Notes under the pieces: generated by a model
Database searches by the model: none
What the model saw: only the letters and a program-made list of their open reading frames with translations
Told to the model about the DNA's origin: nothing
Shown here: piece by piece, positions 402-63,260 of the stretch
Layout of the letters: every line of letters starts with the position of its first letter
How positions within the stretch are numbered: position 1 is the first letter of the stretch
NCBI RefSeq assembly: GCF_019429335.1
Contig: NZ_JAHYJB010000008.1
Coordinates: 1 to 64,000, forward strand
Source: Sulfurimonas sp.
GTDB taxonomy: Bacteria > Campylobacterota > Campylobacteria > Campylobacterales > Sulfurimonadaceae
Length of the DNA: 64,000 bases
Direction of reading: 5' to 3'
Position numbers and translations under genes: made by a program

Positions 402-592
402 ATGACAATTGTACGAAAAAGAGAATACTTAGATTCACTCAAAAGCATACTCTCTTACATCTCAAAAGATAGTAAAAACAAAGCTTTAACCTTCAAAAGC
501 GAAGTAGATAACAAAATCAACAACTTAGCAAACTTTCCACATAAATTTCGACCATCCGTTCATAATGAAGATGAGAATGTTAGAGATATGAT
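402..592 (+). pseudogene. ParE/RelE-type toxin, truncated by IS insertion
   Basis: MTIVRKREYLDSLKSILSYISKDSKNKALTFKSEVDNKINNLANFPHKFRPS... matches a ParE/RelE N-terminus; the reading frame runs into the IS terminal inverted repeat. Confidence 0.65.
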
Positions 593-1795
593 CTGATGTT
601 ACGATAATCTAAATCATTAAATTTACAAAAAGTAACATTGCAAGATTTTATAGGCATTAATAATGCTTAAAAGAGTGTATGCAACAACTACAAGATATTT
701 ACATAAACTTCACAATAAGTTCATTCGGAAAAATAGAAATGACAAAACTTTCACAACTAACAGGTCGGAGTCATGATATCTTTACAAAGTATTTACTCTT
801 AGATAATTCTCTTGATGATGATAAAAGGCTATGGAAGTCAATAAAACCATTTCTAAGAGAGTATGAGAATGAAGAGAGTGGCTGCATTCTTATAGATGAT
901 ATGCTTATGCATAAGCCATGGACAAAAGCTAATGATGTTGTTTGTTGGCACTATGACCATGTATCTCAAAAAATGGCAAAAGGTATCTTGATGCTAAACT
1001 TTCATTATACAGATGCTACAGGCATATCCATTCCATTAGGATATGAAATTATCACAAAGACAGAAGATGTTTGGAGTGAAGAGTATCAGAAATATATCAA
1101 AAAATCGCTCTTTACTAAAAACGAAATAATGCAAGATAAACTTCATGTTTTACATTTTAACAACGAGGTAAAATACAAATACATTTTATTTGATAAATGG
1201 TTTGCAAGTACCAAGAACTTGCTATTTATCGAAGAAGAACTCCAAAAGAAGTTTGTATGTCCAATAAAAAGTAATAGAAAAATAGCACTTACTTTGGAAG
1301 AAAAAAATAAAGGAAAATATGTTAATATCTCAACTATAGATATAGAGGGTGGTAGTAGTCGTTTGGTATACCTTGAGGGTTATGAAAAACCTTTAAGACT
1401 TATCAAGCAAGTAGTCAAAAACGGCGATGATGGCGAATCTACTTATTTATATCTTGTTACAAATGATATAGACTTATCTTTCGATGAAGTACTCGAAATC
1501 TACAAAAGACGGTGGAAAATAGAGGAATATCACAAATCACTCAAGCAGAATTTAAAAATAGAACACTCCCCTACAAAAGTTGAAACTTCACAAAGAAACC
1601 ATATACACTTAGCCGTACTTGGCTTTATTAAATTAGAAAAACTTCGACTGAGTTACAAAATGAACCATTTTGCTATCAAGGAAAAAATCTATATTGAGGC
1701 TCTTCGGAGTGCTTATCAAAAAGTTCAGGAATTACAGGTTGCTTAGAATTGTAACATTTCTAGGAATTTATAAATTTAGATTATCGTAACATCAG
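593..1795 (+). mobile_element. Insertion sequence, IS4/IS701-like, with 22-bp perfect terminal inverted repeats
   Basis: ctgatgttacgataatctaaat (593-614) and its exact reverse complement atttagattatcgtaacatcag (1774-1795) flank one DDE-type transposase ORF. Confidence 0.85.
679..1746 (+). CDS. DDE transposase (IS4/IS701-like)
   Basis: 355 aa; 'CILIDDMLMHKPW', 'YILFDKWFASTKNL', 'YKRRWKIEEYHKSLKQNL' are DDE transposase-like blocks. Confidence 0.85.
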   Translation: MQQLQDIYINFTISSFGKIEMTKLSQLTGRSHDIFTKYLLLDNSLDDDKRLWKSIKPFLREYENEESGCILIDDMLMHKPWTKANDVVCWHYDHVSQKMAKGILMLNFHYTDATGISIPLGYEIITKTEDVWSEEYQKYIKKSLFTKNEIMQDKLHVLHFNNEVKYKYILFDKWFASTKNLLFIEEELQKKFVCPIKSNRKIALTLEEKNKGKYVNISTIDIEGGSSRLVYLEGYEKPLRLIKQVVKNGDDGESTYLYLVTNDIDLSFDEVLEIYKRRWKIEEYHKSLKQNLKIEHSPTKVETSQRNHIHLAVLGFIKLEKLRLSYKMNHFAIKEKIYIEALRSAYQKVQELQVA

Positions 1796-13429: not shown

Positions 13430-14431
13430 CTATTCCCCCAAGATATTTACTATCAGATTTATCACGGTTTCTTTTTGTTGCGGGTCGCTTTTGGCAGTCA
13501 TGAGTGAAAGTGCTACAAGAGCGTTATCATTGATTTTTAGCTCGCCGCTATTTTTATAAAGCATATTGTTTTTAGACAAAAAGAGAATAAACATAAAAGC
13601 ACCGATGCGTTTGTTGCCGTCATTAAAAGGATGCCCTTTGATGATGTAGTAGAGCAGATTTGCCGCTTTCTCTTCTACGCTAGGAAGTAAATCAACACCG
13701 CCAAATGTTTGGTAGATGTTTCGCACCATACCGCCAAACTCTCCCGCTTTTTCATGTCCAAAAAGCTCGGTAGCTTCGCCTTTTTGCATAAGCTCACTTT
13801 TTAGTTGTGCGATAGCCTCTTTTGCCTCATCAAAATCCAAAACGAACTTTGCTTCTTTTGGCTCAATGTTTACATGTAAAGAGTCCTCATCATAACCTTG
13901 TAACAGTGACCAAGTACGAGAGTAGTTTAGTATTACATCCAACAGCCCTTTGGCTTCATGAAGTTCAAGCTCGCTTTGTGAGATAGTATTTTGCAGCAGT
14001 GATATAGTCTCGTTTAACTCTTTAAGCCCTTTTTGCTCCAGCCTTTTATGGTTGATAGCATAGCCGTTTACGAGATACTCTTTTAGGACTTTGGTCGCCC
14101 ATACTCTAAAGCTTGTGGCTCTTTTAGAGTTTACTCTGTAACCAAGTGAGATGATCATATCTAGGTTATAAAATTCTACTTCCCGTTTAACTTCTCTTTT
14201 TCCCTCTTTTTGAACTGTTGCATTTTTTGCAACAGTTGAGTTTTTATCTAGTTCGCCCTCTTTAAAAATATTTCTTATATGCCTTGAGATAACAGACTTA
14301 TCTCTATCAAAAAGCACTTCCATCTGCTTCTGACTCAGCCATACGGTATCGTTTTCAAGCGATACATCAAGCTTTATCTCTCCGTTTATATCTTTGTAGA
14401 TGATTATGTCTGACTTGATTTGATTATTCAT
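13430..14431 (-). CDS. RhuM-family protein with C-terminal Fic/DOC domain
   Basis: RhuM N-terminus 'VWLSQKQMEVLFDRDKSVISRHIRNIFKEGEL' and Fic motif 'HPFNDGNKRIGAFMF'. Confidence 0.85.
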   Translation of the reverse strand: MNNQIKSDIIIYKDINGEIKLDVSLENDTVWLSQKQMEVLFDRDKSVISRHIRNIFKEGELDKNSTVAKNATVQKEGKREVKREVEFYNLDMIISLGYRVNSKRATSFRVWATKVLKEYLVNGYAINHKRLEQKGLKELNETISLLQNTISQSELELHEAKGLLDVILNYSRTWSLLQGYDEDSLHVNIEPKEAKFVLDFDEAKEAIAQLKSELMQKGEATELFGHEKAGEFGGMVRNIYQTFGGVDLLPSVEEKAANLLYYIIKGHPFNDGNKRIGAFMFILFLSKNNMLYKNSGELKINDNALVALSLMTAKSDPQQKETVINLIVNILGE

Positions 14432-14767: not shown

Positions 14768-15994
14768 TTATTCAAGATAAAATAGAGCGTCCATAAGAGC
14801 TACTCTTCCATTCCAAGCTTTTAACTCTTCTTTATTAGTTGGTTTATCTGAATTATACCAAGGGGATTGCCTAACTGGTTCAATAATTTCATCCCAATAT
14901 CTTTCATAACTTTTTGCTTTTATAATATCTCTTTTTATTCCGAAATTTTTCATTAAATTAGGTTGATTTGCCCCAGTTAAACAAAAAAACTCATCTGGTC
15001 TTTTCATTGAAAGTAATCTAGTTATAGGGCTTACTCCATAACCCCATCCAGCTTTTTCAAACTTATTATCAATATCTTTAAAAAACTTATCCGCCATTTT
15101 AAAATAGTATAAAAACTCATTATAGTTTTTAAAACTAACTTCTCCATCTAATGGCATAAGTTTAAGACTATCTGAAATATATTGTAATTGTGGATCATTA
15201 GGAGCTAACCTGCCTAAAAATGCTGGTATTGGCATTCTTCCAAATAATCTCCAATCTTTTATTCCATCGCTTATTTTATTCGCACCAGCAATATTCTTTC
15301 TTTGTATTTCTGTCATCTTTTCAAAACTATTCTGATTAAAATATTCACGAACTTTTGTTAAAAGTCTTAACCTCTCATCTAAATGGTTGCCTTTTTCTAG
15401 CAATAGAGAATAATATTCATCCCAACTCAATGATAAAATTGGTGATTTATACAAAGGATTTTGTATTACATTTGGACTAAAATCATCAAGATTTTGCTTT
15501 TGTATATTTTTTTGATTCCAAACATTTTGATAACCTTGTAAATCTTCTTTTTTAAAAATTTCAGCTTTTTTATAATAGTTATCAATTATGTTTTTAATTT
15601 CTGTAAAATTATTGCCATCTTTTGAGTTAAACATTGTCATAACTTCACTATTTTTAGATAAAGCAGATTGTGTAAAATTCGCACTTCCGCTTAAACAAAT
15701 CCAATCGTTGTCATCATTCCAAAATAGATAAATTTTTGGATGAAAAATACCGTTTTCTTGTTTATAAAATCTTACCCTTTCATCATCTAAAAATTCTTTT
15801 ATAAAATCAGGATGTGTCTGATAAAAGTGTAGTCCAACTGTAGAAAATTTAATTTTCTTTTTATTATCTATTAACAATTTAAAAGCCTCGCTACTAGCAG
15901 AAGCCCAAGCAACGGACATACTAATATTCTCAAATTTTGTAATACAATCACAGATATTGCGTGCAATTTCTTTAGCAGAAGATAAAATTTGCAT
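14768..15994 (-). CDS. Phospholipase D-like nuclease-domain protein with uncharacterised C-terminal half
   Basis: 'FHPKIYLFWNDDNDWICLSGSANFTQSALSKNSE' single HKD-type motif. Confidence 0.75.
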   Translation of the reverse strand: MQILSSAKEIARNICDCITKFENISMSVAWASASSEAFKLLIDNKKKIKFSTVGLHFYQTHPDFIKEFLDDERVRFYKQENGIFHPKIYLFWNDDNDWICLSGSANFTQSALSKNSEVMTMFNSKDGNNFTEIKNIIDNYYKKAEIFKKEDLQGYQNVWNQKNIQKQNLDDFSPNVIQNPLYKSPILSLSWDEYYSLLLEKGNHLDERLRLLTKVREYFNQNSFEKMTEIQRKNIAGANKISDGIKDWRLFGRMPIPAFLGRLAPNDPQLQYISDSLKLMPLDGEVSFKNYNEFLYYFKMADKFFKDIDNKFEKAGWGYGVSPITRLLSMKRPDEFFCLTGANQPNLMKNFGIKRDIIKAKSYERYWDEIIEPVRQSPWYNSDKPTNKEELKAWNGRVALMDALFYLE

Positions 15995-33555: not shown

Positions 33556-34377
33556 ATGGATATATCAAAATACAGTGATTTAATTCTTCTTTACGGCACT
33601 CAATACGGTTTAAAAATTATCGCTGCTCTGGCTATATTTTTTGTCGGCAAGTGGGGAGTGAAAAAAATCACCGCGCTTATCAAAAAAATAATGCTAAAAG
33701 CCGCGTTGGATTTGACTTTAGTCGAGTTTTTGGAAAATGTTATCTATTTCGCGCTCCTAATAGTTGTTATCATAGCTTCTCTTAACGCTCTTGGCATCAA
33801 CACCACATCATTTTTAGCGATATTTGGTGCAGCGTCTTTGGCAATCGGTTTAGCTCTTAAAGACTCTCTTTCAAACATCGGCGCAGCGGTTCTTATAATT
33901 ATATTCAGACCTTTTAGGGTCGGGGATTTTGTAGAAGCTGCGCGGACTTCGGGCAAAGTAGAGGAGATAAATCTCTTCTCAACCATAATGGCTACACCCG
34001 ATAACAAAACCATAATGATTCCAAACTCCGCTGTTATAAACTCCAATATAACAAACTACTCAAACAAGCCTACTCGTCGTGTTGAGCATATCATTGGTGT
34101 AAGCTACAGCGATGATTTAAAGTATGTAAAAGAGGTGTTAAATCAGATTATAAAAGAGGATGAGAGAGTTTTACTCGAACCTGAGCCGCTTGTTGCAGTT
34201 AGCGAACTTGGCGAAAGCAGCGTAAATTTCACGTTTCGCGTATGGGTCAATAACAACGATTACTCGAATGTCTATTTTGACATGTTAGAAAAAATAAAAG
34301 TTACGTTTGATGAAAAAGGGATAACGATTCCGTTTCCGCAGATGGATGTACACGCAAAAAGGATTGAAAATGTTTAA
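33556..34377 (+). CDS. MscS-family mechanosensitive ion channel
   Basis: 'FGAASLAIGLALKDSLSNIGAAVLIIIFRPFRVGDFVEA'. Confidence 0.92.
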   Translation: MDISKYSDLILLYGTQYGLKIIAALAIFFVGKWGVKKITALIKKIMLKAALDLTLVEFLENVIYFALLIVVIIASLNALGINTTSFLAIFGAASLAIGLALKDSLSNIGAAVLIIIFRPFRVGDFVEAARTSGKVEEINLFSTIMATPDNKTIMIPNSAVINSNITNYSNKPTRRVEHIIGVSYSDDLKYVKEVLNQIIKEDERVLLEPEPLVAVSELGESSVNFTFRVWVNNNDYSNVYFDMLEKIKVTFDEKGITIPFPQMDVHAKRIENV

Positions 34378-35242
34378 AACAGTTGTTGCTCTGCTTGTTC
34401 TTGCTACTTTCGTAGTTGCACAAAATCCAGAAGACATTAAAGATGAGATACGGATTACCAAAGAGAAAATCAAGAGATTAAATGAGAATTTAAAATCTCT
34501 TGAAGAGAGCCTCCCGAAAGAGGATTACGCGTTTAAGGCGGTTGCAGAGGTAGGATATACGGCAAACTCTGGAAATACTGACACAGAGGCTTTTAATGTT
34601 GATGCGAAGATTACAAACAGCTGGGACCTTCACTCTCTTGAGGCAATACTGCTAATGCAATACGGAACCGAGGATGGCATAGAGAACAAAAACAGACTTC
34701 TTACAGAACTTTTGTACGACTACAAACTATCCGATAGACTCTCTATGAACTACCTTGCAGGTTATAAAGATGATAAGTTTTCAGGTTTTGCATATCAATT
34801 CTATACAGGTCCCGGCGCTAAATATATAGCAATAAAAGATGAAGTGCAAGATTTGGCGGTTGATGGAAACCTTCTATACTCAAAAGACGAGATAGAAGAT
34901 ACATATACGCTTAACGGCAATGTTGTTAAATACCCATACCCCGCTGGAAGCATAGGCCTAAATGACGGACATGTCAGAAGCTACGCTGCATACAGATTAA
35001 AAGGTGTTTATAACCTGCAGCTTCTTCAAAATCTAAAATTTCACCAGACACTAAGCTACAGATCAGAGTTTTCTGACCTACAAAACTATTTTATCTACTC
35101 AAAGACAGGAGTATATAACAAGCTGACGGATATATTTTCTGCAGGTATTGTTTACCAGATAGACTATACGAACAAACCCGCTCTTCCCGGTAAAACATCA
35201 ACCGATAAGATTTTTACGTTTAACCTGATTGCTAACTACTAG
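34370..35242 (+). CDS. DUF481 (YdiY-like) outer-membrane protein
   Basis: Start MFKTVVALLVLATFVVAQ at 34370; 'AEVGYTANSGNTDTEAFNVDAKIT' typical of DUF481. Confidence 0.8.
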   Translation: MFKTVVALLVLATFVVAQNPEDIKDEIRITKEKIKRLNENLKSLEESLPKEDYAFKAVAEVGYTANSGNTDTEAFNVDAKITNSWDLHSLEAILLMQYGTEDGIENKNRLLTELLYDYKLSDRLSMNYLAGYKDDKFSGFAYQFYTGPGAKYIAIKDEVQDLAVDGNLLYSKDEIEDTYTLNGNVVKYPYPAGSIGLNDGHVRSYAAYRLKGVYNLQLLQNLKFHQTLSYRSEFSDLQNYFIYSKTGVYNKLTDIFSAGIVYQIDYTNKPALPGKTSTDKIFTFNLIANY

Positions 35243-35250
35243 ATGTAACA

Positions 35251-35346
35251 CACTGAAACGAACGCGTCCGTTTCAGTGGGAGGGACTCACCGTCCCTTCC
35301 AACCCCCTAAAGCTACGAAAAAAACAAGTTTTTCGAGAATTACAAG
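35251..35346. repeat. Intergenic three-hairpin repeat family E, copy 1
   Basis: CACTGAAACG-aacgcgtc-CGTTTCAGTG; agggac-tcacc-gtccct; CGAAAAA-aacaag-TTTTTCG then agaat. Confidence 0.9.
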
Positions 35347-36455
35347 CTAATTTTTTTTAAACTATTCCCCCAAATATACAAAAACCAGGTTGCTATAAGC
35401 GCGATAAGAGTCGCGCTTAGAAACAGGTAACTTGGGTAATACTCATAGACGTATCCTGCAATAAGCGCCCCTGTAAACGCTCCAAATCCATATGTTATGC
35501 CTGAGAAAAACTGCTGTGCAAGCGATTTGTGCTTGTAAAGATAAAATAGATAGCTGATTGCTGCCGAGTGAAAGAGTGCAAAACTAAGCGCATGAAGAGC
35601 TTGCGAAAAGAACAGAATAGTAACATTATCAGGAAACAAAAATAACAAAAACCATCTTATTGCGGTTATAAAAGTAGTTGCCTGAAGTATAAAAAGCAGA
35701 TTTCTGCGAAGAAGGGAGCCTTGAAAGTAGAGCATAAAAATCTCCACGACAACCCCAAAACTCCAGAGATAGATTGTAATATCTAAACTGACTCCATGGT
35801 CCGTCGTATAGATGGTAAAAAAGTTGTAAAATGGACCAAAACTTACCTGCATAAACGTAAGCCCTGCCCACAATCTCCAATCTTTTAAGAGGTTAATATC
35901 GTTTGTAGCATCTTCGCTCTTATCCAAAAGTGCATCAGCCTTTTTTGCTATTACAAACCCTATCGCAGATGTAACGATGGTTAAAACAAGAAGATAGACA
36001 AGCGCAACATCCGCCGAGCTTAGAAACTTAACCAGCACAAGAGCCACAATAATAAAGCCGACAGATCCAAACAGCCTTATTTTTCCATAGCGCTCTTTGC
36101 CAAGATATTTAAGTGAAATTAGCTCAACATAGGGCAGTACAATGCTAAGTCCAACACCCAAGCTGATATTTGAAAAAAGGAGTTTATAAAAACTATCAAG
36201 CGAGAAATAAAACGACACGGCGCTTAAACACATTATCAAAAGAGAGATATTAAAACTCTTTACATTGATTTTAAGCCCTTTTATAAATGCAAAAGGAACC
36301 AAAAAACGCACTAAAGGAGCCGCAGCAAATATTATACCTATATCACTGGCACTATATCCCGCCATAGAGAGGACTTTTGGCAAGAATATTATATAAACAC
36401 CGATAATTGAGAAGTAAAAAAAATAAAAAATTGCTAATAAAATTGACATGCGCAA
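35340..36455 (-). CDS. MFS transporter (3-phenylpropionate/nucleoside symporter-like)
   Basis: 12 TM-like profile, 'GYSASDIGIIFAAAPLVRFLVPF'. Confidence 0.82.
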   Translation of the reverse strand: MRMSILLAIFYFFYFSIIGVYIIFLPKVLSMAGYSASDIGIIFAAAPLVRFLVPFAFIKGLKINVKSFNISLLIMCLSAVSFYFSLDSFYKLLFSNISLGVGLSIVLPYVELISLKYLGKERYGKIRLFGSVGFIIVALVLVKFLSSADVALVYLLVLTIVTSAIGFVIAKKADALLDKSEDATNDINLLKDWRLWAGLTFMQVSFGPFYNFFTIYTTDHGVSLDITIYLWSFGVVVEIFMLYFQGSLLRRNLLFILQATTFITAIRWFLLFLFPDNVTILFFSQALHALSFALFHSAAISYLFYLYKHKSLAQQFFSGITYGFGAFTGALIAGYVYEYYPSYLFLSATLIALIATWFLYIWGNSLKKISL

Positions 36456-57441: not shown

Positions 57442-57472
57442 GTTAAATCCTTTGTTATTATTTGATAATATG

Positions 57473-57597
57473 CACTAAAACGAACGCGTTCGTTTTAGTG
57501 AGAGGGACTAAAGTCCCTTCTAACCCCCTTGCCATGGAGTATGCCATTGGTTAGCATACCTAAAAGCTACGAAAAAAGTTTTTCGAGAATCGCAAGG
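57473..57597. repeat. Intergenic three-hairpin repeat family E, copy 2 (with an extra internal hairpin)
   Basis: CACTAAAACG-aacgcgtt-CGTTTTAGTG; AGGGACT-aa-AGTCCCT; gtatgc/gcatac insert; CGAAAAA-ag-TTTTTCG. Confidence 0.9.
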
Positions 57598-57656
57598 TGT
57601 TTTATGCCATTGTTTGTAAAAGTGCATAAGCCTAATTATTATAAGTGAAAACATTT

Positions 57657-57673
57657 AGCATTTAATGTTCCAA
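57657..57673 (-). promoter_or_regulatory. Sigma-54-type promoter candidate upstream of flgE
   Basis: Minus strand TTGGAACATTAAATGCT: GG-N10-GC spacing; similar to the candidate upstream of fliK. Confidence 0.4.
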
Positions 57674-57678
57674 CTTTA

Positions 57679-58971
57679 TTATGCGTCCATCTCCAGAGCT
57701 TTTTTGAGCATCTGGTCTGCGGTTGTTATAGACTTTGAGTTGGCGTCATACGCTCTTTGCATTACGATTATCTCGGTCAATCCAACCTCCATTCTCACAT
57801 TTGAACCCTCTAGTTTATAGTTTGTAAGCTCGGTGCCTAGAATATTTTTGCCGTTTTCATCTTGAAAAAACATAGGTCTGCCACTATTGTTTGATTCCGT
57901 AAATCTAGCCCCGTTTACACGTTCAAGACCTCTGTCGTTCTGGAAGTGATAAACTGCAACCATACCTATTGAGCTCTGCATGCCGTTAGAAAAAGTTGCG
58001 ATTATCTGAGCATTTTTATTTATGTCATACCCGACAAGATCTCCAGTTTGCAACCCATCAGACGAGCTTGAACCGCTAAAAGGGTTGTTCATGGCAATTA
58101 GCCCGTCAAAACCAGTGCCTAAATCTAGACGGACTGTCGAGCCGTTATTGTTTATGGAAGAGAGCGTATTTGATGTCAATATACCGGACTCATCAAACGT
58201 TACAACTCCGGTTTGCGTATCATATACCGTTAGAGGAAGATAGGTAGTTTCACCGGTCTCTTTGTTATAAACCGTATCTACACTTGCACTTTGTGCAGTT
58301 GCTACCACATTCCACTGTGTTCCAGGGGAGACCTGCGGGTCAACTTTAGTAAATTCAAGTCTTATGCTGTTTATATTGCTCTGTGCATCAATCGCTTTTG
58401 CACTTATTACCCTTGTCTCATCATTAACGCTCAGGTTTCCGAAAAATCTCGCCTCTGTTGTAGGCTGAACAGGAAAAACCAAATCATCCGGAAAACGCAG
58501 TTTTTGCTGAGTAGTCACTGCGCCCAATTCTACTTCTGCAAGCTGCTGTGTCAATACTCCGTTATTAATATTGGCGCCCATTGTTCCTAAAACATAGTAG
58601 CCGTCATGCGTTACCAGATCTCTGTTTTTATCAAACGTAAAGCTTCCATCACGGGTATACATGGGCTTTCCTTCGCCTTGTACAGCGAACCAGCCGTCTC
58701 CTATAATGGCCAAGTCTGTACTCTTGTCTGCCAACTGATAAACACCCCTGTTTTCATCCATTACAACCGTACCGAGTCGTGTTCCGACACCAATGCCTGA
58801 GTTAAGTGATGACGTGGTGCTAATCATATTCTCAAAAAGAGATGAAAACTCCGTGCTGTAACCGCGAAAACCGATTGTGCTTATGTTTGATAAATTATCA
58901 GAAACTACGTCAATAGCGGTCTGATGCGCTTTTATTCCGTTTATTCCAGTGTAAAAAGCTTGGCTCATCAT
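57679..58971 (-). CDS. flgE: Flagellar hook protein FlgE-like (second paralogue, hook operon)
   Basis: 'MMSQAFYTGINGIKAHQTAIDVVSDNLSNISTIGFRGYSTEF', 'MQRAYDANSKSITTADQMLKKALEM'. Confidence 0.9.
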   Translation of the reverse strand: MMSQAFYTGINGIKAHQTAIDVVSDNLSNISTIGFRGYSTEFSSLFENMISTTSSLNSGIGVGTRLGTVVMDENRGVYQLADKSTDLAIIGDGWFAVQGEGKPMYTRDGSFTFDKNRDLVTHDGYYVLGTMGANINNGVLTQQLAEVELGAVTTQQKLRFPDDLVFPVQPTTEARFFGNLSVNDETRVISAKAIDAQSNINSIRLEFTKVDPQVSPGTQWNVVATAQSASVDTVYNKETGETTYLPLTVYDTQTGVVTFDESGILTSNTLSSINNNGSTVRLDLGTGFDGLIAMNNPFSGSSSSDGLQTGDLVGYDINKNAQIIATFSNGMQSSIGMVAVYHFQNDRGLERVNGARFTESNNSGRPMFFQDENGKNILGTELTNYKLEGSNVRMEVGLTEIIVMQRAYDANSKSITTADQMLKKALEMDA

Positions 58972-58981
58972 TTGATAATCC

Positions 58982-59647
58982 TTAGTAAACTTCTACTATT
59001 TGTGATAGTGGAACATAGTTTGAACCGACTTTGACAAATGTTTCGCCGTTTTCAAATCTTACTGATTCAATCGGATAAGCGCCGACTCTTGTCGTTAGCG
59101 CATCACCGTTTGGATTGGTATATGAAGCTGTTGAATAATATATTCCGCTATTAACTGCATTGCCGCTTGAGTCTGTTCCATCCCATGTAAACTGGTAAAC
59201 ACCCTTAGGGTTTGTTCCGACATCTAATGTTTTTAGAATATTTCCATTTACGTCCAGTATCTCAACATTTCCTCTCTCTATGTCATCTGGGAAATATATC
59301 TCAAAAGTTGTATCTGAACCTTCATCAAGCACTAGCGCATTGCTCCCAATATCAGCAGTTTTGCCGATTGCGGCTATTGTGCTAAACTGCTGCGAATTGC
59401 CAAGCGATGCAGCTAAATCTGAAAGCGCTTTGTTTGTGTTTTCTGATGCCTCTAGGGTTGCAAGCTGTGATGTCTGAGATAAAATCTTCTCGCTGTCCAT
59501 AGGCTCTGTCGGGTCTTGGTGCTGAAGCTCAACCAAAAGAAGCTTCATAAAATCATCTTTTCCGAGTATGTTTTTATTGTCAGTGTCTACCGTTTTAGCA
59601 TAGTCTGCGTTTGTTGCAGCATTTAAGCCTGTTGATGTGATTGCCAT
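58982..59647 (-). CDS. flgD: Flagellar hook assembly (cap) protein FlgD
   Basis: 'LGKDDFMKLLLVELQHQDPTEPMDSEKILSQTSQLATLE' and FlnYxx/Tudor-like C-terminal region. Confidence 0.93.
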   Translation of the reverse strand: MAITSTGLNAATNADYAKTVDTDNKNILGKDDFMKLLLVELQHQDPTEPMDSEKILSQTSQLATLEASENTNKALSDLAASLGNSQQFSTIAAIGKTADIGSNALVLDEGSDTTFEIYFPDDIERGNVEILDVNGNILKTLDVGTNPKGVYQFTWDGTDSSGNAVNSGIYYSTASYTNPNGDALTTRVGAYPIESVRFENGETFVKVGSNYVPLSQIVEVY

Positions 59648-59669
59648 TGTGGTTTTTCCTTTTCCATAT

Positions 59670-61322
59670 TTATATATATCGTGGAACTATAATCTCTAAA
59701 GAGCTTAAAATCTCTTCGTTTGCCTCTTCATGTTCAAAATAGCTATACTCTTCATGAGCTTGTCGCTCATTGTGTCTCTGCTGGTGTCCCCCGCCGGCAT
59801 TGGTATCGCTGTTTTGCTGCCCGTTACTAAAGTTTAATGTAGCATTATTTATTCCATTGTTGCTCAACTGCACTCTGAGCTCATTTGCGTTCATTGATAG
59901 GGTATTTATCGCTGTGTTGTTTGAACTGATACTCACATGTAGATTTTTACCTCTTTGGACTATAGTCAGATCAACCTCGCCCAATCTTTGCGGATTTAAC
60001 TGCAATTTTACTCTTGTAAAAGGAGATTTGTAATCCTCTATCGCACTCTTTACATCGGCTGACAGATACCTAATCATCTGTTTTGCTTCATTCAGTTTAA
60101 CTTCAAAACTATCACTCTTATGGGTTGTCAATGATTCCATTTTAGCTGATGACGAACTCTGCTCCGCGGACGAGGAAGTGCCATGCAGAAGGTGCTCTAG
60201 AGTTTTTGCACTCTCAGTCGTAGCCGTTGGTGCGATTACTTTGGCGGTTGCAACTGAAAAATCAGCCGTTAGCGCAGAGTTGTTTGTTGAGGGTTTTTCG
60301 CCGCGCAACAGAAGCTTGAGAGTCTCATCTGCTCTCTCTTTTGGTCTCTTTTGCTCTGATTTAAAAGAGTGGCTGTTTGCTTTAACCTGAACTATCTGCT
60401 CTGTTGATGTATGCTCAGCCACTGCTTGCGCCTTGAATAGAGGCGTATGTTTTATCTCTTTTTGAATCTCTGCAAATTTCCCATCAAGTTTAATCTCATT
60501 TTGTTCTATCTTTGAAGCCGATAAGTTACTGACAGCTGCATTTTTTTGCTTTTCGTCCGTCTGCACCGTTTGAGCTTTTTTCTCCACAGATACCTCTTTT
60601 GGCGCTTCGGCTTTCGCCTCTTTTTGTGCTTCTGCCGTTAACGCTTTCGACGCCTCACCCTTCGCCTCTTTTTGTGCTTCTGTTCTTAACCCTTTTGGCG
60701 TTTCGGTTTTAAGCTCTTTTTCTGAGACCGTTTTTTTCTCTATAACCGCCTCTTTTGCAATCTCACTCTTCCCATCTTTTGCGACCATAGCTTTGACATC
60801 TTCTTGCCTAACTCCCCTTTGTGCATTCGACTTAACCTCTTCAAAGCTTATTTTAGTTATATCTATGCCGAACTTTTTAGCTGCTTCAACCAGCCCCTTA
60901 AGCGTATTCGGAAGATCTTTTATCTCAGCTTTTTTGTAGCCTTCACTCTCTTGTATTTTTGCTTTGATATAATTTTTTGCTTCACCTACGAGCACTCTTA
61001 TATCTGTTTTTGACAAAGCAGCGGTTAGTTTTGGATTTAGTTCCAACGGCTCCATGGTTTTGTTAGGAGCCAAATTTTCTTCACTTTTTAAAAGAGCGTG
61101 TGGCGAATCTTTCTTTAAAGAGGTGCTTTTTGCTGTTTTTAGGCTTTTTTCTTCATCTCCAAGAGATAATATCAAAGAGCCATTTTGAACAATCTTGGCA
61201 TCCTTTTTATCACTTACGCCTCTTAAAAGGTCTGAAAATGAGAGGGCAGGCTTCTCTTTTGGCACCGATAAATTTAATGGTGAAGATGATGCTTTACTGC
61301 TTTTAGCATTTGCTACTATCAT
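59670..61322 (-). CDS. fliK: Flagellar hook-length control protein FliK
   Basis: C-terminal 'PFTRVKLQLNPQRLGEVDLTIVQRGKNLHVSISSNNTAINTL'; low-complexity N-terminal region; hook operon position. Confidence 0.88.
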   Translation of the reverse strand: MIVANAKSSKASSSPLNLSVPKEKPALSFSDLLRGVSDKKDAKIVQNGSLILSLGDEEKSLKTAKSTSLKKDSPHALLKSEENLAPNKTMEPLELNPKLTAALSKTDIRVLVGEAKNYIKAKIQESEGYKKAEIKDLPNTLKGLVEAAKKFGIDITKISFEEVKSNAQRGVRQEDVKAMVAKDGKSEIAKEAVIEKKTVSEKELKTETPKGLRTEAQKEAKGEASKALTAEAQKEAKAEAPKEVSVEKKAQTVQTDEKQKNAAVSNLSASKIEQNEIKLDGKFAEIQKEIKHTPLFKAQAVAEHTSTEQIVQVKANSHSFKSEQKRPKERADETLKLLLRGEKPSTNNSALTADFSVATAKVIAPTATTESAKTLEHLLHGTSSSAEQSSSSAKMESLTTHKSDSFEVKLNEAKQMIRYLSADVKSAIEDYKSPFTRVKLQLNPQRLGEVDLTIVQRGKNLHVSISSNNTAINTLSMNANELRVQLSNNGINNATLNFSNGQQNSDTNAGGGHQQRHNERQAHEEYSYFEHEEANEEILSSLEIIVPRYI

Positions 61323-61366
61323 TACCCGCTCCTTTGTATTTTTTTATTAAAGATTTTAGGATTATC

Positions 61367-61383
61367 AGCATAAACTATTCCAC
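61367..61383 (-). promoter_or_regulatory. Sigma-54-type promoter candidate upstream of the fliK-flgD-flgE operon
   Basis: Minus strand GTGGAATAGTTTATGCT: GG-N10-GC spacing, about 45-60 bp upstream of fliK. Confidence 0.45.
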
Positions 61384-61404
61384 TCTTAAACCGATATAGT
61401 CCAC

Positions 61405-61656
61405 ATGATTAAATTACTATTTTTATTACCTCCCATACTGTTGGCGGCACAAACTCCATTTGGTGCCGTTACGGCAAAAAATGTTGATACGTCTGCTTAT
61501 GAGGCAAAGAAGAGCCAAGAAGTAGAGCAGGCCTCTAAAAATGTAAAAGTAACATGTAGATTGGTGTGTGATAAAAAAGTGTATAAAGAGCAGAGGATAT
61601 CAGAGGCGATAGAGTTTTATAAAAACTCTAAAGATTATGGGTTTAATAGGGATTAA
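61405..61656 (+). CDS. Small exported hypothetical protein
   Basis: 83 aa with N-terminal signal-like 'MIKLLFLLPPILLAAQTPFG'. Confidence 0.6.
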   Translation: MIKLLFLLPPILLAAQTPFGAVTAKNVDTSAYEAKKSQEVEQASKNVKVTCRLVCDKKVYKEQRISEAIEFYKNSKDYGFNRD

Positions 61657-62059
61657 AGCTATTAAGGCATACTAAGTCGTTGTGGTATGTAGCGCTTAGG
61701 ACATCTCTTAACTCAGAGATTAGTGCCTCAGGCTTCTCCCCATCAACCGGATAACTTACCATAAACGAATTCAAATTTTTGGCAAAAAACTCTTCAAACA
61801 TATTTTTTACGATTTGCGCACCATACTTATCCGTATATGGGAGCACAAAAAAGTAGTCAGCATTATTGTTTACTATTGCGTCAGAATTTCTAAGTATTTG
61901 CTCCAGCGAGCTCTCTATGACCGACTCCTTGACTGCTGAAAAATCGCAATACAGCAGGGTAAAACTCTCGGCACGATTCTCATCGAGCCTCTGCGCCAAA
62001 CCTATGCTTAAATCTAAAAGTTGTCTAAAATTGTCAAATCCAAAGTGTATGCCAGCCAT
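61643..62059 (-). CDS. Hypothetical protein
   Basis: 138 aa, no recognised domain; overlaps the convergent ORF by 14 nt at the 3' ends. Confidence 0.6.
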   Translation of the reverse strand: MAGIHFGFDNFRQLLDLSIGLAQRLDENRAESFTLLYCDFSAVKESVIESSLEQILRNSDAIVNNNADYFFVLPYTDKYGAQIVKNMFEEFFAKNLNSFMVSYPVDGEKPEALISELRDVLSATYHNDLVCLNSFNPY

Positions 62060-62117
62060 GATTTACCTCAAGTTTTAAAGTTTCAAAAAGTATATCCTAA
62101 AAAAATAGAAATAGAAA

Positions 62118-63098
62118 TTACTGCATTATCGCGTATGATTTTATCTCATCTCTAGAAGCAAAAGGAGTGGCTTGAATCTCCTCATCGTCAAGACTAAGCA
62201 TGTAGCTTATGTTCTTGTCACTTTTGCAATATGTGAGAATTATTTTTGCTGCAAGCTCTTTGTCTGAGTCTGTTGCATTTTTGCTAAGAAGTGAGTGCGG
62301 GCCAGGCAGACCGATTGCCTTTACGTGGTAATATTTGTCATTGTTTATATCTTGGAGACGTGCGTTCTCCTCTTGATTTCTTCCCACTACAAGCTTTGAG
62401 CCGTCTTTGAGGCGTAAATGACGACCATATTTCATCACAGGGATATCTTTTACTTCAAACTTATCATACTTGATAAAATCAAACATCTTTTTAGCAAAGT
62501 TCTCATCCGTTAAAAGGCATCCGCCGCCCGGGCTCTCAAAATTTTCCAGGCCTATCTCTTTAGCAAGTTCAAGCTGTCTTTCGCGACTTCTTCCCACAAT
62601 CTCTTCAAGTTTGTCTCTGTTCACCCATCCATTTATCTCGGCAATTGTAGGAGCGAGGGCTTTGGCAGATAGCGGACGAAGGAGCAGTCCGTCACAGTTG
62701 CTCTCGTTTAAAACTGTCTGCATAGCGTCTTTATTTTGGCTCATCGGACGTTGTCCTAAAACCTCGCCGCTAATCAAAAATGAGGCGCCCTCCGCCTCCA
62801 TAACTCTTTTTGCCACCGCAAACATCTTTGTATGACAATCGATGCATGGGTTAAAATTTTTGCCATAACCATGTTTTGGGTCAAAGAGTACATCTTGCAA
62901 AAATTCACTCTCAATATTTATTATTTTTAGCTGGGCACCGACCTGAGCGCACATACTCTGCATATGCCCAAGTCTATCTTTTGTGCTTCCAAAACCGGTG
63001 CTTATATTTACAGCCAAAACTTCTATGCCTTGGTCTATTATAAGTTTCATCGCCAAAGTTGAGTCTAATCCACCGCTAAATAGTGCTATTGCTTTCAT
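62118..63098 (-). CDS. MnmA/ThiI-like PP-loop ATPase (tRNA thiolation-like)
   Basis: 'MKAIALFSGGLDSTLAMKLI' PP-loop; 'FNPCIDCHTKMF'; 'SPGGGCLLTDENFAKKM'. Confidence 0.85.
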   Translation of the reverse strand: MKAIALFSGGLDSTLAMKLIIDQGIEVLAVNISTGFGSTKDRLGHMQSMCAQVGAQLKIINIESEFLQDVLFDPKHGYGKNFNPCIDCHTKMFAVAKRVMEAEGASFLISGEVLGQRPMSQNKDAMQTVLNESNCDGLLLRPLSAKALAPTIAEINGWVNRDKLEEIVGRSRERQLELAKEIGLENFESPGGGCLLTDENFAKKMFDFIKYDKFEVKDIPVMKYGRHLRLKDGSKLVVGRNQEENARLQDINNDKYYHVKAIGLPGPHSLLSKNATDSDKELAAKIILTYCKSDKNISYMLSLDDEEIQATPFASRDEIKSYAIMQ

Positions 63099-63138
63099 CT
63101 TCTTCCTTGTAAAATTGATAGTTTTATCTCATATTACG

Positions 63139-63232
63139 CATTAAAACGAACAAGTCCGTTTTAATGGCATGAACTAAAGTCCCTACAACTCTCCTTATGC
63201 TACGAAAAACTTTGTTTTTCGAGAATTATAAG
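63139..63232. repeat. Intergenic three-hairpin repeat family E, copy 3
   Basis: CATTAAAACG-aacaagtc-CGTTTTAATG; degenerate middle hairpin; CGAAAAA-ctttg-TTTTTCG then agaat. Confidence 0.88.
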
Positions 63233-63260
63233 GTCAGATTTTATTTAATGAAATTATACA

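Follow-up and report, generated by a model that had tools for sequence, protein, structure and literature searches.

A Campylobacterales MITE family with IS701-type ends and a covarying three-hairpin core that may be kept at gene 3' ends

Structured MITEs in bacteria

ERIC (also IRU) is a 127-bp structured miniature inverted-repeat transposable element (MITE) of enterobacteria; a review gives its ends as 7-bp inverted repeats with TA at the termini, and in Yersinia it is reported to influence upstream transcript stability (PMC2229807). A comparable repeat occurs three times in a 64,000-nt stretch of Sulfurimonas sp. (contig NZ_JAHYJB010000008.1, positions 1 to 64,000; the window). The three repeats are very probably old members of a Campylobacterales MITE family that an IS701-type transposase mobilizes. 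They resemble ERIC in being elements of similar size that are dispersed between genes, have inverted ends and duplicate their target. ERIC itself folds strongly when transcribed and is co-transcribed with its neighbors, and the Campylobacterales MITE would probably behave likewise. The latter also belongs to another bacterial order, is apparently unrelated in sequence, and is set apart by IS701-type ends with a 7-bp duplication and by three hairpins and a fixed linker that outlast those ends.

RUP, Correia/NEMIS and other bacterial MITEs are likewise non-autonomous, with terminal inverted repeats (TIRs) and target site duplications, and rely on an insertion sequence (IS) with matching ends (PMC2229807); the Campylobacterales MITE differs from them in its interior, where several covarying hairpins form a core that a number of families share. 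Insertion sequences of the IS701 family (NF049921) have the same outer 11-14 bp at both ends and the same 7-bp duplication, but the MITE carries no transposase gene and shares nothing of their interior beyond the ends. REP/REPIN elements with their RAYT transposase are also many-copy short extragenic palindromes; in contrast to them, the MITE has DDE-type ends and duplications and does not depend on a Y1 transposase.

The repeat had been called undescribed-looking in a first-pass annotation of the window, which the searches support. No fitting published element and no earlier description of a Sulfurimonas MITE or an IS701 MITE was found in the open-access literature, a search that did not cover ISfinder, and a REP survey gives palindrome counts for S. 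gotlandica only. Rfam holds no match: the window at gathering score against Rfam 15, HEARO/omega-RNA type families included, returned tRNA only, and for five copies at a permissive threshold (E up to 10) the element matched no family above chance.

Three copies in the window

The copies and their parts are as follows.

35240..35349, +, MITE copy 1; right end lost, limit approximate
From 35240, +, copy 1 left end; decayed, TAGATGTAACACAC with 4 mismatches; gives open reading frame (ORF) 34346-35242 its TAG stop
35251..35278, +, copy 1, hairpin 1
35279..35300, +, copy 1, hairpin 2, GGAGGGAC..GTCCCTTCC
35316..35335, +, copy 1, hairpin 3
57455..57461, no strand, copy 2 left target duplication, TTATTAT
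57462..57635, +, MITE copy 2; full length, 174 bp, ends TTGATAATATGCAC...GTGCATAAGCCTAA; covariance model match 60.4 bits
57473..57500, +, copy 2, hairpin 1
57502..57520, +, copy 2, hairpin 2
57539..57559, +, copy 2, inserted hairpin GTATGC..GCATAC; shared with own-genome copies L179 and L181
57570..57585, +, copy 2, hairpin 3
57636..57642, no strand, copy 2 right target duplication, TTATTAT
63128..63237, +, MITE copy 3; 110 bp, left end CTCATATTACGCAT, right-end remnant AAGGTCAG; covariance model match 93.2 bits
63139..63166, +, copy 3, hairpin 1
63167..63187, +, copy 3, hairpin 2; partly degraded
63203..63221, +, copy 3, hairpin 3

The hairpin-1 sequences given in the first-pass annotation are exact and stand at 35251-35278, 57473-57500 and 63139-63166, and a scan of the whole window allowing 3 mismatches finds these sites only, with 0 matches in 100 shuffles. 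The elements themselves exceed the hairpins, copy 2 spanning 57462-57635 and copy 3 spanning 63128-63237. Hairpin 3 is indeed present in each copy, but a middle hairpin, GGGAC..GTCCC, had been missed. The claim that all copies are intergenic needs qualification, as the ORFs on either side of copy 1 (which starts at 35240, outside the coordinates of the annotation) both have their stop codons within it, and the common orientation of the three copies is a property of the window; genome-wide both strands are used (4 and 4 for one motif). The covariance model matches copy 1 at 35241-35339 with 96.3 bits, and its hairpin 2 has a compensated pair (GCA/TGC to GGA/TCC). The duplication around copy 2 is exact, TTATTAT on both flanks, and copy 3 is flanked by the near-duplication GTTTTAT/ATTTTAT. 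A hairpin insert of about 30 nt, ATGGAGTATGCCATTGGTTAGCATACC (window 57530-57560), stands between the linker and hairpin 3 in copy 2, L179 and L181.

Ends, target duplications and the probable mobilizing insertion sequence

Full-length copies measure about 110-175 bp and are bounded by the TIRs CTGAYSTTACGCAC / GTGCGTAAGGTCAG; they start with CTGATGTTACGCAC or CTGACCTTACGCAC and terminate in GTGCGTAAGGTCAG or GTGCGTAACATCAG. Exact 7-bp target duplications stand just outside the ends in 15 of 44 full-length copies, compared with a mean of 0.58 and a maximum of 2 in 100 shuffles of the flank pairing. The signal is confined to 7 bp and to that register, with none at 8 or 9 bp. The repeat is therefore a MITE by its short length, TIRs, fixed-length duplication and ends that match an autonomous transposon, as one of the suggested readings, "MITE-like," had it. 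Hairpin ends of the IS200/IS605 type were considered and are rejected in view of the clear 7-bp duplication; such elements are not known to duplicate their target on insertion.

An autonomous relative is present in the window itself.

593..1795, +, IS701-family insertion sequence; 1203 bp, TIRs CTGATGTTACG.../...CGTAACATCAG
679..1746, +, DDE transposase, intact, 355 aa; NCBIfam NF049921 transpos_IS701_2, PF01609 DDE_Tnp_1; the proposed mobilizer type

Its inverted repeat (593-623/1765-1795) is 31 nt long with 90% identity, and its outer 11 bp, CTGATGTTACG, equal the MITE left end while being unique in the window even at 1 mismatch. The transposase scores 264.8 bits against NF049921 (cut-off 250, E 1.2e-78). 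Most intact close homologues of this transposase lie within elements that share the MITE ends, several of them with duplications: the IS at L302 has ends CTGACCTTACGCAC/GTGCGTAAGGTCAG and the duplication TTAGTAA, that at L304 the same ends and the 8-bp duplication TTAAGTAA, and those with CTGATGTTACG/CGTAACATCAG ends are flanked by AAAATCA (L299), TAAATAA (L315) and TTTATAA (L323). Remoter homologues (about 457 aa) lack MITE-type ends. These intact IS701-family elements, with the same ends and in several cases 7-bp duplications, point to the probable mobilizer.

The REP reading, the other mobile-element proposal of the first-pass annotation, would have the copies spread as REP/REPIN elements by a RAYT (Y1 tyrosine) transposase. 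Like REPs, the copies are numerous short intergenic palindromes, GTAG immediately precedes the hairpin-2 palindrome on the minus strand, and 81 of 151 genomes have Y1_Tnp genes. However, no Y1_Tnp (PF01797) match is listed for G081, G101, G115, G067, G078, G098, G120 or G126, whose copy numbers of the element range from 10 to at least 27 (the covariance model scored up to 27 copies per genome, hence "at least"), so membership in the REP/RAYT system fails. Moreover, the 7-bp duplications and the inverted ends shared with a DDE insertion sequence are not REP features. Spread by RAYT is extremely improbable.

The insertion sequence interrupts a ParE-like toxin ORF (window 402-596, PF05016, 64 aa), whose stop TGA (594-596) belongs to the IS end. 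On the right side of the IS there is no obvious continuation of the ParE-like gene, so a neighboring deletion is likely.

Distribution of the family

The 2.06-Mb genome of the host (Sulfurimonas sp.) contains 46 pieces of the repeat by BLAST, and a covariance model trained on 16 copies gives 34 strong matches (E < 1e-6) with a weaker tail; about 35-40 are clear MITE copies. In the host's family the model matches 100 of 151 sampled genomes, many of which carry at least 27 copies, and in an order-wide search it matches 61 of 299 genomes, in about 10 families besides the host's own. A scan of GTDB genomes for an exact 18-base motif recovered 116 stretches; among the matches listed all are from Campylobacterota, with the genera Sulfurimonas, Sulfuricurvum, Sulfurovum, Sulfurospirillum and relatives. 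Phage records gave zero matches, and the plasmid search a single partial match to the element, in Sulfuricurvum kujiense.

Two side observations concern the host genome and its relatives. The hairpin-1 palindrome AAACGAACNNGTCCGTTT also occurs solitarily, without the remaining element, at G000 C40:20252 and C65:33953 (L027, L041). Near 82990 of G000 C40, comparison with the close relative G146 C101 (L372) shows an extra insertion of about 128 bp in the host genome.

Fold and covariation of the core

Three hairpins make up the core, together with a linker, CAACCCCCTAAAGCTAC...GAGA, that does not vary. Both-sided changes in the third and fifth pairs of hairpin 1 had been taken as direct evidence for structure; the two changes are real, but three sequences alone are thin evidence, and it is the larger alignments that bear the structure out. 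Across 16 own-genome copies, both-sided changes occur at 12 of 25 pairs (3.0 in shuffles, 0 of 500 as high), and shifting the pairing by 1-3 columns destroys the signal. Among 110 copies from other genomes, there are 246 both-sided cells against 57.4 +/- 6.3 in shuffles (0 of 500 as high), and 18 pairs with both-sided changes against 11.7. Because related sequences may exceed shuffles without any structure, the pair counts are sturdier than the cell counts. The covariation thus persists genome-wide, in the own-genome and the other-genome alignments alike.

The arms of hairpins 1 and 3 vary widely among copies (for example CACTAAAACG, TATAATGAGC, ATAGATAGG, CGCCAAGACG; GAAAAA, CCCTATC, CCCGC). 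Despite this divergence, the linker CAACCCCCTAAAGCTAC and the GAGA foot remain constant. Hairpin 1 also accommodates nested inserts. A second small repeat, CTAAAGAAACTTCGTTTT with its inverse, sometimes with additional small hairpins, is nested in hairpins 1 or 3 of L071, L074, L077, L085, L035, L038, L218 and L240, with AAAAC/GTTTT as its apparent insertion point. A remote family, f4 (L373-L375 in G237; L389 in G286), has the same core between other flanks, which in G237 are TTATGTTAC.. / ..AACCTAAAACAG with GC-rich hairpins; the core may therefore travel with more than one type of transposon end.

Symmetric arms can also arise without selection, and template switching within palindromes is the serious rival to selection on the fold. 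The corresponding explanation is a purely selfish MITE whose hairpins have no host function, their symmetry being renewed by template switching (quasi-palindrome correction) in replication, with copies that are young or derived from few master copies; it is a tenable account, if on the unlikely side. In the 16-copy alignment, hairpin 1 shows both-sided changes without one-sided intermediates, which fits single arm-copying events. What template switching leaves unexplained is that hairpin-1 and hairpin-3 sequences of quite different origin sit in the same frame, and that the unpaired linker and the GAGA foot are conserved even where both ends have decayed.

The fold after loss of the ends

Decayed copies provide a view of the core after mobility has gone. 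The right end is at background level in 106 of 175 copies, and 49 copies are intact; compensated pairs make up 10% in the former and 8% in the latter, and the share of broken pairs is the same. In the 27 copies without either end (612 cells), 93 both-sided Watson-Crick changes stand against 56 broken cells, so the fold outlives mobility. At orthologous sites of different species (for example L142/L179, L135/L149 and L126/L273) the arms differ yet pair, and L215/L288, orthologous by one flank, likewise have differing but paired hairpins. In own-genome copies that were not selected by motif, 13% of the linker has decayed compared with 25% of the left end. Taken together, compensated pairs in immobile copies make selection on the fold likely.

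Position relative to genes and the folding strand

Full-length copies lie close to gene ends, with median distances of 3 and 4 nt to stop codons and of 51 and 29 nt to starts. The stop codon often comes from the element itself, as the TGA of its end (CTGA), or from an adjacent TAA. Of 30 copies that have lost both ends, 23 are downstream of a gene and none is between divergent genes, compared with 5 of 26 intact copies (p 0.017). The absence of decayed-end copies between divergent genes is a further point that a purely selfish MITE leaves unexplained, whereas the unbiased orientation of full-length copies (15/15/14/13) is what would be expected without strand selection. The placement pattern fits a role at 3' ends, or the mere removal of copies from promoters.

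Gene orientation was tried as a guide to the strand and rejected. A sense bias of 105 to 58 disappears in full-length copies, and the residual bias of end-less copies stems from convergent gene pairs (11 ++ vs 7 --), so it is uninformative on the strand. Hairpins 1 and 3 contain 72 A.C and 41 G.T mismatches (p 0.005 on the assumption of independent cells, which does not hold). In hairpin 2, 150 of 181 copies have C.A as the second pair, equivalent to U.G on the minus strand. Both observations favor the minus strand. By folding energy, too, this strand is the more stable in 156 of 173 cores. It would be the better candidate for any RNA under selection, the placement data being indecisive.

The minus-strand preference also bears on the suggestion that the core is a gene for a trans-acting or processed small RNA, encoded on the minus strand, which hitch-hikes in the MITE and was amplified as useful to the transposon or host. 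The statistics and energy of minus-strand pairing, the conserved linker and the occurrence of the core with different ends in f4 (L373-L375) would all agree with this. Neighboring genes do not recur, however: ORF clustering across 145 loci found just ordinary, varied neighbors. Visual inspection of the alignment, made without a scan, showed no conserved promoter or terminator, and dozens of copies per genome would be unusual for a trans-acting RNA. This suggestion is improbable.

Possible domestication at message ends

The evidence from ends, fold and placement can be combined into a mechanism. IS701-type DDE transposases would bind the ends CTGAYSTTACGCAC / GTGCGTAAGGTCAG of the gene-less MITE and excise it, and insertion of the excised element into AT-rich sites would create the 7-bp duplication. 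The inserted hairpin core could then become the end of neighboring genes' messages and be retained there, as the folded RNA would protect or process message ends, a role proposed for ERIC and other structured MITEs. On the leading reading, an otherwise selfish MITE has its hairpin core retained as an RNA structure at gene 3' ends; the pairing in decayed copies suggests this, with a probability approaching an even chance. The broader proposition, an undescribed and probably minus-strand fold that is shared by Campylobacterales families and was carried as cargo of an IS701 MITE before being domesticated at gene 3' ends, where selection would have kept it once the transposon ends decayed, is more tentative.

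Several observations weigh against this account. On the side of mobility, the window IS itself has no target duplication (flanks ATATGAT / TAAATAA), and most MITE-bearing genomes have no detectable transposase of the IS701 type. Homologues occur in just 17 of 200 genomes of the host's family, which indicates that many MITE families are now static or have lost their mobilizer. In the one empty-site comparison, the contig of the close relative begins inside the element at the orthologous site. On the side of the fold, both-sided changes may in part be due to template switching within palindromes, some of the orthologous-site pairs may reflect reinsertion at the same spot, and pairing in own-genome copies with lost right ends is 87%, against 93% in live copies. 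The difference in decay between linker and left end reaches p 0.03 only, and linker conservation is biased in copies L182-L297, which were recruited by an 18-nt exact motif. Finally, readthrough from an upstream gene yields the plus strand, which is awkward for a minus-strand fold.

A widespread unannotated repeat is now tied to a specific candidate mobilizer, and annotators gain a repeat family that is absent from Rfam. As judged from sequence alone, the folded interior of the MITE appears to be maintained where the element is immobile. Domestication of bacterial MITE hairpins as 3'-end RNA structures becomes testable in cultivable Sulfurimonas or Sulfuricurvum and, if true, would mean that a whole lineage has adopted the core of a MITE for its message ends.

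Other observations

Elsewhere in the window, a RhuM/Fic-domain protein is encoded on the minus strand at 13430-14431. Beside it, also on the minus strand (14768-15994), lies the gene of a PLD-nuclease-like protein that matches the NgoFVII restriction endonuclease domain; the two neighbors are a possible defense or toxin-antitoxin pair.

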